NCBI RefSeq assembly: GCF_037975245.1
Contig: NC_092579.1
Span: 5,827,001 to 5,891,000 of the forward strand
DNA length: 64,000 bases
Reading direction: 5' to 3'
From: Apostichopus japonicus
Lineage: Eukaryota > Echinodermata > Holothuroidea > Aspidochirotida > Stichopodidae
Part shown: piece by piece, positions 39,512-52,266 of the stretch
Layout: each line of letters opens with the position of its first letter
Numbering within the stretch: the first letter of the stretch is position 1
The notes under the pieces: generated by a model
What the model saw: only the letters and a program-made list of their open reading frames with translations
What the model was told of the DNA's origin: nothing
Databases searched by the model: none
Program-made: the position numbers and the translations under genes

Positions 39512-39589
39512 TTATATATGGACTTCATTCTTCATGTCTTCCCAGTCGCTAATCTTTTCTACCAGCTCCCATACGAAGGATAGGTCAAT
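39512..39589 (-). CDS. DUF4239-like exon 10 (C-terminus)
   Basis: Excellent tract CTCTTTTCCCCTCTCTCGATAG|, phase 0; encodes [20 protein letters not shown] and NEVHI then TAA. An amphipathic tail after PFSG fits the family better than the read-through end of exon 9. Confidence 0.75.
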   Translation of the reverse strand: MDLSFVWELVEKISDWEDMKNEVHI

Positions 39590-42500
39590 CTATCGAGAGA
39601 GGGGAAAAGAGTGAGAACTGATAGATTGACACAAAAAATCAGAAAACTCGAAAGACTAAAGCACCTTCATTAGGCTACCTGAGGGAATTTTTATATTCCT
39701 TACAAATCTCCTGTATCTCATGACTAGCTATACTTATTAAGAACAGTCACACATGAAAAAAACCTGGGCACGAAAAACCAAACAACCGAACGACTGACCC
39801 GCTCTCAACCCCAGTCCCCTTGCATCGAGGCTATGACTGTGTGATCATCGTCAGGTGTGAATCACGATTCCCCTCGAAGGGGAACAGATACTACACATGA
39901 TCTTAGCAAAAAGGCCGAGAAGCGATCTCCTGATTAGCTATAGTTATAACATGTATTGTGACTATTATTTACGTTAACACCTGCAGCATCTCATGACTAG
40001 CTACAATTGCCCGTTGTATCGATATTTCTGACATAGCTACGTATACAACCCCTGACTTAGTACATACATATATGTGCTCACCTGCACAAGTATAACGAAA
40101 TTCTTCACATAACCACCTGCATCACGTACAGTAACTATAGCAACACCTGGTCACCACTTTTTGTATCTGTAATTCCTCACAGGCACATCCATCCAATGAC
40201 TAAAGCTTAACTTACCGTTCGCATACATTTCTGTATTCCACTAATACATGCTTATACATACGTCTTCCAACTAGCTGCAGATATCACTATAATGTAGGTA
40301 CCAAAACCATGTCTCACTTAGCTTACCTACACCCCCTGACTAGATGCCTTATCATATATGTGAGGCTCAATATATCCTACGTGGGATTAAAGTGGCTTAA
40401 AGCTTCTTACACTGAAATATCCACTAAACGGTGAATCCATGTCTGCGATGATGAAACATAACACAGTTATGGAGAGGACTGTAATCACGCACATGACAAG
40501 CTCAACCTGTACAGAGCCAGCCTGAAAAAAAAATGAACTATTGATATTTACAAAAATACAAAAATACCACATCAATTTTATGAAGTTTCTTGTTGTTACA
40601 AAGTCTCTATTGACATATTTTGCCCCCACCCAAGCAGAAATACCCACCCTCCCACTTCCGTTCTCCTTCAGTTACCCTTCCCTTCCCCTACTCATTCCTC
40701 CTCGTATATGCTTATAGCCAACTATACCGGTACCAAACTCGTTGCAACGCTGGAGAATCAAAAAGAAATAAGAGATTTGCTGCGCACAATCAGCACAGTT
40801 TATAGCCACCAGCACTCCCCGCATTGGAACTGACTATACTTATAAGAAAAAAAGAAAGCGAACGTGATTCCTCTATGATACATTACTTCTTAATTTAACT
40901 AATCATAGCCTTAAGTTGCAACCTTCGCTTCGCCATTCCCACGGTGACACAGTACTACATTACATAGAAGGCAGTGTATAGTCTCATTGCAGCCGTTCTA
41001 AATACTTACATCGATCAACATAATGCCAAAGAACGAAAAGAATCCAAGTAACTCCAAGAAACCCCACTGAAGAGCATGTATTCGGCTTGATAAGTACATT
41101 TTACGTGTGCTCGCCAGTGAAACTAACGTCTGGATGTTGGAGACTATTTTATCCTGAAAACAAGATGATCAAACGTATAATTTCATGCATGTCTCTTTAT
41201 ATAATGTAAGTATTTGGAATAATGAACCTGACCATGGAGTCAGCGTTTCTTGAAATCCTATTTTGCGCACAATTAAAAACTGAAGTACATGTATGCAGGC
41301 GCGGCGGAACGGAAAAATTATTGGGGGGGGGGGCTAATGTGTGGAGACTATCTAAGCGGAGCGCCACCATCGGTTGGCGCGGAGCGTACAAGAAAATTTT
41401 GGGTTTTTTCAAACCCCCAGATGGCCGGAAACGGCACTTCCCGAGTGTTTTATGCTGCGAATACCTAGCCCTAGAATATGGGTCTCAAGCCTGCAATTTC
41501 TCAGATTGCACGTAAAAGTCTGTAAAAACATTGTAATTTGTATATTCGATGGTGTTTTAAGAGAGTAGCTATTACTCGCAGTGTACTCGCAAAGACGTTT
41601 TTGAGTGTAGTAAGGGCAGTGGCGGAGCTAGGGGTATTGGTCGGGGGGGGGGCAAGAATAGTCTGTAGGGGCGCTTTCGACACTATCTAAGCGGAGCGCC
41701 ACCACAGGTTGGCGCGGAGCGGTCAGAAAATTTTTGAGTAAAGACACTCCCTAGATTGCAGGAAATCACCCTTTCCGGGCCTTACTAATTTGCAGATTAA
41801 CGGAGAATAAATAGGTGTCGTCGCCATTTTGTCGGAAAATTACACCAACAGAATATGACAAATGTCAATAGGTATATGAGAGCGCAATAAAATAGTCAAT
41901 AATCGCGAATAAGTAAAAAGTAGTGAAAAGCTGAAAAGGGCGCCAGCAGTCCATTTGAGTCCGTCAGGGGGGGGGGGGTGGGCATCCGCCCCTGACTGTA
42001 TATATGGACGCTCCGCCACTAAGTAAGGGAATGTTGGAGAACTGGCTGAAATGAGGCAAGTCATTGGCCTAAGACGAAGTTGTGTTACGCTTACCGGTAC
42101 TCACACTAACTTCTTCCACTTTTCACAGGGCGTGAAGACGTGGTTGGGGTGACAATGTGGTCTATAGCCAGGAGACGGGCCGAGGGTCCCCCAGCAATTA
42201 CTAAAATTATTACACCTATATAGTATACGTGTGCATCGGAGAGATCGACAAGTATGCATTGAAAAATGGGCAGATGCACGTTTCGGAGCCTTGGTAAATA
42301 TTGGGGGGCTTATCATGCATTTGCCCCCTCAACTTTTTCATTGGGGGGCTGAGCCCCCCCAAGCCCCCCCCCCCCCGGTTCCGCCGCCACTGCATGTCGT
42401 TCTGTATGTAAAGTGCATGGATAACCGTTTATAAAACAGTTAATTTCGTTCTTTGGCATTTTTCTTTTATTTGAATTACTACTTTTATTTTCTTTGCATG

Positions 42501-51500: not shown

Positions 51501-52266
51501 GAATTAAGAAATTACATTCATGATACGTTCTACGTTTGTTTACTTGCTTGTTTATTTACTTGTTTGTTTGGGGTGAAGAGGCATACTCTCAACAACAAAG
51601 AATATGTTTGAAGGGAAGATAAACAAATACGTATTATACGGGCGTGCTTTGAAAAGCATTGTCATTGTTACTTACTCTACAAGAATATCTTGGCCTATGT
51701 ATAATATCTCTTATGAATATACAAAATAGTAGGCGTGGCTAAACAGATTCTATAGTACCTTCAAAAAGCTGTTGTTATGCGACTAGATGTGATACTACAA
51801 TGCATATTGGATTTGTACTAAAATAACGAAAGGAATACTATTACATACTAAACTAAAATTCCTATATATATGTTACATTTGCCGGATAATATGGTTACGA
51901 AAAATCATATAGTACACCTTCGACGGCTCAAGAAGATATTTATCCCACACTGCATCCCACCTCCGTCCCCGCACTCTTAATGACCCCACCATCCCACACT
52001 CAACATTTCAGTGAAGAAAAAAAAAGGATAATAAATTTACCAAGTATAAAAAGCAAAATAACACCAACTGGGGATAAGACAACTGGGACTGATGCTACCA
52101 ATTCTGGCACCGCCTCTGGAACCACTTCCGGTTCAGCGGTAGCTACCATCTCTGGTTCCACTTCTGGGTCACCAGTAGGTACCACCTCCGGTTCGGCGTA
52201 AGGTTCACCCGTATATTCAGGGTCGGGTTTACCCTCTGGGTCCGTTGTTGGCTCTGGGGTAGCCAT
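39512..52266 (-). CDS. DUF4239/bestrophin-like four-helix membrane protein, 10 exons, 419 aa
   Basis: Hand-built; exons 52266-52041, 51442-51272, 50256-50068, 47280-47259, 46904-46760, 45247-45134, 44493-44434, 41153-41010, 40521-40411, 39589-39512; 1260 nt, all phases agree. The acidic Pro/Glu/Val-rich N-terminus (1-60, EPEVVP-type repeats) precedes TM1 (about 62-83), which is spliced between exons 1 and 2 and followed by FRRRK. TM2 is about 155-175, with a hydrophobic patch after HDP (about 178-184). A long helical, coiled-coil-like stretch spans 205-330. TM3 (338-355) and TM4 (363-383) are followed by D-S-P-F-S-G (386-391). Two N-terminal helices, a long soluble middle, two C-terminal helices and a D-x-P-F-x-G end are the plan I know from DUF4239 (bestrophin-like) proteins of bacteria and plants, whose function is unknown. 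Gene structure is strong; family name is moderate. Confidence 0.85.
39762..39926 (-). mobile_element. SINE with U2-snRNA-like head
   Basis: Read on the minus strand, the head ATCGCTTCTCGGCCTTTTTG with CTAAGATCA and then GTGTAGTATCTGTTC is almost the 5' 45 nt of U2 snRNA. After that it departs from U2 (no Sm site or 3' stem-loops) into a body ending CGTGCCCAGG. So it is a composite retroposon or U2 pseudogene chimera, not a functional U2 gene. The body recurs at 23571-23715. Confidence 0.75.
40411..40521 (-). CDS. DUF4239-like exon 9, TM4 and DxPFSG
   Basis: Flanked by a T run with TTCAG| and AGT|GTAAGA, phase 0-0. Encodes TM4 and [10 protein letters not shown]. If unspliced it would stop after eight more codons (40387), so an alternative shorter end is possible. 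Confidence 0.86.
41010..41153 (-). CDS. DUF4239-like exon 8, TM3
   Basis: Flanked by TTGTTTTCAG| and GAT|GTAAGT, phase 0-0. Encodes [20 protein letters not shown] then IMLID, the third membrane helix, typical of the conserved end of the family. Confidence 0.88.
41296..42392. mobile_element. older hAT-like element interrupted by family B copy 2
   Basis: Left end CAGGCGCGGCGGAAC and right end GTTCCGCCGCCACTG are inverted repeats; flanks CATGTATG and CATGTCGT share the first five bases. Removing the nested copy leaves about 684 bp without an intact frame. The left part matches 17690-17825 in reverse. Confidence 0.55.
41617..42021. mobile_element. hAT-like miniature element, family B copy 2
   Basis: Same orientation and end-to-end similarity to 16292-16668; exact 8-bp duplication AGTAAGGG on both sides (41609-41616, 42022-42029). 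Contains an extra segment of about 25 bp near 41830. Confidence 0.88.
43134..43248. repeat. AT microsatellite, about 115 bp
   Basis: (AT)n in intron 7 of the DUF4239-like gene. Confidence 0.97.
44434..44493 (-). CDS. DUF4239-like exon 7
   Basis: Flanked by TTGATTCACAG| and ACG|GTAAGA, phase 0-0; twenty codons, [20 protein letters not shown]. Confidence 0.8.
45134..45247 (-). CDS. DUF4239-like exon 6
   Basis: Flanked by ATGAGCAG| and CAG|GTAAAT, phase 0-0. Encodes [20 protein letters not shown] and a polar end. The polypyrimidine tract is the weakest of the set, but alternative acceptors break the frame. Confidence 0.78.
45735..46118. mobile_element. hAT-like miniature element, family A copy 2 (inverted)
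   Basis: Reverse-oriented copy of 901-1269 across its whole length, flanked by an exact 8-bp duplication AGTCGAGG (45727-45734 and 46119-46126). Lies in intron 5 of the DUF4239-like gene. Confidence 0.85.
46760..46904 (-). CDS. DUF4239-like exon 5
   Basis: Flanked by TCTCTTACAG| and GAG|GTAAAA, phase 2 in and 0 out. Encodes a helical region with spaced Leu/Ile/Val ([19 protein letters not shown]), likely part of the coiled-coil middle. Confidence 0.83.
47259..47280 (-). CDS. DUF4239-like exon 4, 22-nt microexon
   Basis: GTTTTCTAG| and TATGC|GTAAGT enclose 22 nt coding GPAGLVY plus split codons, phase 1 in and 2 out. Dropping it would shift the frame between exons 3 and 5, so it is needed by the model. 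Confidence 0.75.
47979..48030. repeat. AT microsatellite
   Basis: (AT)26 in intron 3 of the DUF4239-like gene. Confidence 0.97.
49865..49988. repeat. two copies of a 44-bp unit, 80 bp apart
   Basis: AGCATGGTATGAGCGGCTAG and the next 24 bases are the same at 49865 and 49945. The surrounding GTACGAGTGCT and AAATTGTCCCAACT motifs recur at 58300-58570. Confidence 0.8.
50068..50256 (-). CDS. DUF4239-like exon 3, TM2
   Basis: Flanked by TTTTCTTTCAG| and TTG|GTAAGG, phase 1-1. Encodes [20 protein letters not shown] (TM2) and a second hydrophobic patch. Confidence 0.87.
51272..51442 (-). CDS. DUF4239-like exon 2
   Basis: Long pyrimidine tract then TTGAAAG|, donor TTGC|GTAAGC, phase 1-1. Completes TM1 ([15 protein letters not shown]) and adds a polar Gln/Glu-rich segment. 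Confidence 0.85.
52041..52266 (-). CDS. DUF4239-like exon 1
   Basis: Starts ATGG in good context; donor CTTG|GTAAAT, phase 1 out. Residues 1-75: an acidic repeat-like stretch, then [14 protein letters not shown], the first half of TM1. No secretion signal is seen ahead of it. An untranslated or coding exon farther upstream cannot be excluded. Confidence 0.8.

Follow-up and report, generated by a model that had tools for sequence, protein, structure and literature searches.

A gene of ten exons lies on the minus strand of the 64,000-nucleotide stretch of Apostichopus japonicus DNA analysed here (contig NC_092579.1, positions 5,827,001 to 5,891,000; hereafter the window). Its product is a divergent membrane protein of the Pfam family PF14023, also known as DUF4239. 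On balance, we read it as a normal, intron-rich nuclear echinoderm gene whose product would form a bestrophin-like ring channel. The family link to bestrophins is not new, since Pfam already names PF14023 "Bestrophin-like", but almost no literature was found behind this suggestive name. Open-literature searches, which left most subscription journals outside, found no functional test of the PF14023/DUF4239 family. Of two papers that mention DUF4239, one lists it among the domains of SET proteins and the other places it in a correlation cluster, neither of which is a functional test. Among the open-literature titles listed for bestrophin with amphioxus, sea urchin or domain of unknown function, none concerned the PF14023 family. 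The fold result described below offers the family a concrete and testable mechanism, a bestrophin-type pore. With this ten-exon echinoderm gene, PF14023 is seen to belong naturally in an animal genome, and the family can be tested in an organism other than a bacterium or a plant.

Gene model and membership of PF14023

Ten exons were located between 39512 and 52266 and joined, giving 423 residues followed by a stop codon (Table 1). The nine introns range from 354 to 3280 bases, all are GT-AG, and the phases are compatible across every join. A sequence-only reading of this stretch had already proposed ten in-phase exons on this strand, which these introns and phases bear out; its count of 419 residues was four short. 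G+C content is 43% in the joined coding sequence and 32-41% in the introns, but 35% in exon 6 alone. The splice sites differ in strength. The exon 3 acceptor is strong, with only 1.9% of AGs reaching its score, whereas the scores of the exon 6 and exon 7 acceptors are reached by 21% of AGs. The exon 2 donor matches the consensus at five of nine positions, and 43% of same-strand GTs do at least as well.

Table 1. Exons of the PF14023 gene, with positions in the window and the parts of the protein they encode
Exon	Position	Strand	Encoded part
Exon 1	52041..52266	-	Start codon and acidic PE/V-rich tail, then the N-terminal half of the extra membrane helix; outside the PF14023 match
Exon 2	51272..51442	-	C-terminal half of the extra membrane helix, then a basic stretch and a linker; outside the PF14023 match
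Exon 3	50068..50256	-	First family membrane helix; PF14023 match starts at residue 182
Exon 4 (34 bases)	47259..47292	-	Start of the second family membrane helix; proposed neck residue L204
Exon 5	46760..46904	-	Remainder of the second helix, including V208 and F212; invariant E231
Exon 6	45134..45247	-	Putative cytosolic helical region; within the PF14023 match
Exon 7	44434..44493	-	Putative cytosolic helical region; within the PF14023 match
Exon 8	41010..41153	-	Invariant R330, third family membrane helix
Exon 9	40411..40521	-	Fourth family membrane helix, D-S-P-F-S-G motif; PF14023 match alone 32.1 bits
Exon 10	39512..39589	-	C-terminus, stop codon; within the PF14023 match

A Pfam search with the joined protein matched PF14023 at 96.6 bits (cut-off 32; E = 2.1e-27), aligning residues 182-400 with positions 17-228 of the 232-position profile. 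This agrees with the DUF4239 assignment that had been made from the sequence alone. The two names denote one family, as an Acidisarcina protein annotated "DUF4239 domain-containing" matches PF14023. Membership of the echinoderm protein in PF14023 is close to certain. The alignment is collinear through exons 3 to 10, and because the match spans these exons, their joins are confirmed and the gene model for exons 3-10 is established. Exons 1 and 2 fall outside the profile.

Hydropathy was calculated in 19-residue windows with a threshold of 1.5. Peaks were found at residues 62-80, 155-173 (overlapping 163-181), 194-212, 344-362 and 369-387. The sequence-only reading had listed four helices, all of which were found, the last two displaced by a few residues; the helix at 194-212 was missing from its list. 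By hydropathy, the four family membrane helices are ordered as two, a long middle and two more, with one extra helix encoded by exons 1 and 2. The predicted model of a bacterial PF14023 relative also has a long helical middle. The D-S-P-F-S-G motif noted earlier near the end of the protein lies at residues 390-395.

The protein was aligned with six bacterial members and then with ten, five of which are from Streptomyces, so that the count of fixed columns leans to one genus. Identity to the bacterial members was 14-21% in the six-sequence alignment and 13-18% in the ten-sequence alignment, and only two of the eight columns fixed across all ten bacterial sequences are retained. E231 and R330 are identical across both alignments, and D390, P392, F393 and G395 are each common to nine of the ten sequences. 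By these comparisons the echinoderm protein is a divergent member of the family. It shares the helix order, the E, the R and the D-x-P-F-x-G motif with bacterial members such as WP_114211236.1 (Acidisarcina polymorpha). In contrast to them, it is encoded by ten exons, carries an extra N-terminal membrane helix and an acidic tail, and lacks several residues that are invariant among the aligned bacterial sequences.

Further searches for relatives returned little. A plasmid search with the echinoderm protein at E up to 1 gave one record, from Acidisarcina (E = 6e-3, 21.2% identity), and an NCBIfam scan gave two matches only, both below threshold. A search of phages with a Nonomuraea query (E up to 1e-3) gave no relative. 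A viral carrier was considered and set aside, as the viral_contigs collection gave seven pattern matches and no relative was confirmed among them. A whole-genome PF14023 scan, which works exon by exon, recognised one place only, exon 9 of the present gene, and none of its remaining nine exons, so that a single place does not equal a single copy. None of the 14 control genomes matched.

Relation to bestrophins and the proposed channel

The predicted fold of a Streptomyces PF14023 relative matches that of bestrophin. The structural comparison thus favours the earlier description of the protein as bestrophin-like, although it was made on a bacterial relative. The similarity is shown for the predicted fold of the bacterial member, and by analogy the echinoderm protein itself very probably takes the bestrophin fold.

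Bestrophins are described as pentameric channels whose subunits have four helices each, the second of which carries a hydrophobic neck, and as having a cytosolic aperture (PMC8496536). According to the same paper, animal bestrophins carry an acidic Ca2+ clasp, while the bacterial KpBest is insensitive to Ca2+. There, KpBest is described as conducting Na+ and its neck is given as I-I-F (I62, I66 and F70, with the same numbering as E. coli YneE), that of eukaryotic channels as I-F-F.

In the echinoderm protein, L204, V208 and F212 align with the YneE neck residues V62, I66 and F70 in a weak profile alignment (E 0.059), and a forced global alignment differs in register. The proposed L-V-F neck is closer to the I-I-F of KpBest than to the animal I-F-F. 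No acidic cluster was found in the 11 residues after the P-F-S-G turn.

Under the proposed mechanism, the protein would fold with a pair of membrane helices on either side of a cytosolic helical region, the second pair being followed by the P-F-S-G turn. As in bestrophins, the subunits would assemble into a ring; its pore would be lined by the second family helix and narrowest at L204-V208-F212. Small ions would pass without the known Ca2+ gating, since the sequence that follows the turn lacks the acidic clasp of animal bestrophins. The acidic tail encoded by exons 1 and 2 would probably lie on the opposite side of the membrane, anchored by the fifth helix. Together, the neck alignment with YneE and the absent acidic cluster would point to an oligomeric channel that is not gated by the known clasp.

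The bacterial bestrophins (PF25539, Bestrophin_2; KpBest and YneE) are comparable in several respects. Their second helix has a similar G..hydrophobic..F stretch, their fold is matched by the model of the PF14023 relative, and KpBest likewise has no Ca2+ clasp. However, the echinoderm protein has no PF25539 match, and its profile similarity to them is slight. In contrast to the animal bestrophins BEST1-4 (PF01062), it has no PF01062 match, no acidic clasp (the E300-D304 region) after P-F-S-G, and V instead of F as the middle residue of its proposed neck. The thylakoid bestrophin VCCN1 matches a true bacterial bestrophin by sequence (7ek1, E = 3.9e-15), whereas the echinoderm protein does not. 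The name common to VCCN1/algal BST and PF14023 does not imply one family.

The sequence link to bestrophin is weak, with profile comparisons giving E values of 0.03, 0.059 and 0.35, and 0.013 with the bacterial sequences alone. The local alignment, when extended to full length, stays collinear, and the R-motif and P-F turn of both families coincide, but a global alignment that includes the echinoderm protein shifts register (E 0.71). Three PF14023 proteins were also scanned against Pfam. One of them, from Mycobacterium, matched Bestrophin_2 at E = 0.0061, under the cut-off, and YneE, a true bacterial bestrophin, matched the animal bestrophin model at E 0.03, also under the cut-off. The three families are therefore roughly equidistant by sequence. 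In the Pfam scan of the echinoderm protein, PF01062 and PF25539 gave no match at E up to 10. When PDB sequences were searched with a profile, five unrelated chains and no bestrophin were returned. A search of PDB sequences with the protein itself gave eight matches, all low-complexity or chance, mostly circumsporozoite repeats on the acidic tail.

Exons 1 and 2 and alternative readings

Exon 1 encodes the acidic PE/V-rich N-terminus that the sequence-only reading had described, and the tail carries in-phase 36-base repeats, each of 12 codons. A Pfam match to Trypan_PARP on these acidic repeats (E 0.00019, 21.9 bits) did not reach the cut-off of 100 and was rejected. The extra helix (residues 62-80) has a peak hydropathy of 2.93 and is followed by a basic stretch. 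It straddles the exon 1/2 junction and is complete only after the two exons are joined. When stop-free joins were made at random, 159 of 34,457 minus-strand joins, a count that includes the real gene, and 13 of 31,025 plus-strand joins had a junction helix of at least 2.5. This rarity is supportive of the exon 1-2 join, short of proof.

Another explanation is that the product begins in exon 3 and has four helices, exons 1 and 2 then being either a distinct feature or an alternative beginning. The position of these exons beyond the PF14023 match would fit this, as would the in-frame ATGs upstream of the exon 3 acceptor, which could begin a shorter form. Since the exon 3 acceptor is strong and random joins seldom produce a helix like the one across exons 1 and 2, we consider this explanation unlikely. 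Bacterial contamination or recent bacterial transfer is far less credible still. The annotated relatives are indeed bacterial, but only prokaryotic collections were searched. Nine introns, the low identity to the ten-sequence bacterial set, a position 5.8 Mb inside a contig of a 671.6-Mb genome, and the helix-loop-helix and EGF-like frames in the same window (described below) all speak against it, and the argument from intron density made in the sequence-only reading stands. These points do not bear on an old transfer.

A PF14023 protein could also have the bestrophin fold and not be a channel. It would then act as a scaffold or a regulatory subunit of another channel, and its pore residues would have drifted. 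In favour of this, the protein differs at several positions that are invariant across the ten bacterial sequences (W to L218, P to S249, Y to I263, W to Q272 and R to A327). However, the proposed neck is still hydrophobic at all three positions, the P-F-S-G turn is retained, and the family scans point to no other function. The non-channel explanation is thus the less probable one, and by analogy with bestrophins the echinoderm protein probably functions as an ion channel. More tentatively, animals may hold a second lineage of bestrophin-fold channels beside BEST1-4, without the known Ca2+ clasp gating and, in this echinoderm, with an acidic N-terminal part that is borne by a membrane helix of its own.

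Genomic context and other features of the window

Of the 35 contigs that make up the 671.6-Mb genome, contig 19 contains the window. Contig 35 is mitochondrial (16,099 bases), and its COX1 frame is open from 1 to 1551 under genetic code table 9; the open frames are identical under tables 5, 9, 13, 21 and 24. In the COX1 reading, TGA is Trp, AGA is Ser and AAA is Asn. Among the sites occupied by AAA is the N in S-T-N-H-K-D-I-G, a position that is Asn in COX1. A nad4L-like frame lies between cox1 and the following long frame, which was read as cox2 by size, order and sequence. The plus strand of this contig has frames read as nad1 and nad2 and the large-subunit ribosomal RNA (16S). We take this gene order to be of the echinoid/holothuroid type. 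The mitochondrial contig supports an echinoderm host, and together with the two domain frames in the window it upholds the earlier view that the gene is an animal one.

On the minus strand of the window, a 277-residue open frame at 3441-4271 contains a helix-loop-helix domain (PF00010, E = 7.3e-15), and a frame at 61206-61493 contains an EGF-like domain (PF00008, E = 3.3e-7) and is likely an exon of a larger gene. A 410-residue open frame at 29301-30530, also on the minus strand, includes a run of acidic residues, is rich in basic residues and serine, and has no Pfam family above cut-off. A TTTCT array at 10476-10966 has 98 copies with 98% matches. Within the introns of the PF14023 gene, 41300-42400 (intron 7) and 45740-46100 (intron 5) are rich in G-runs or C-runs and resemble the remains of mobile elements. 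Intron 9 contains, on the gene's own strand (minus), a shortened sequence like U2 small nuclear RNA at 39839-39926 (Rfam RF00004, 48.1 bits, cut-off 46), which has 88 bases compared to the 192 positions of the model and is probably a pseudogene.
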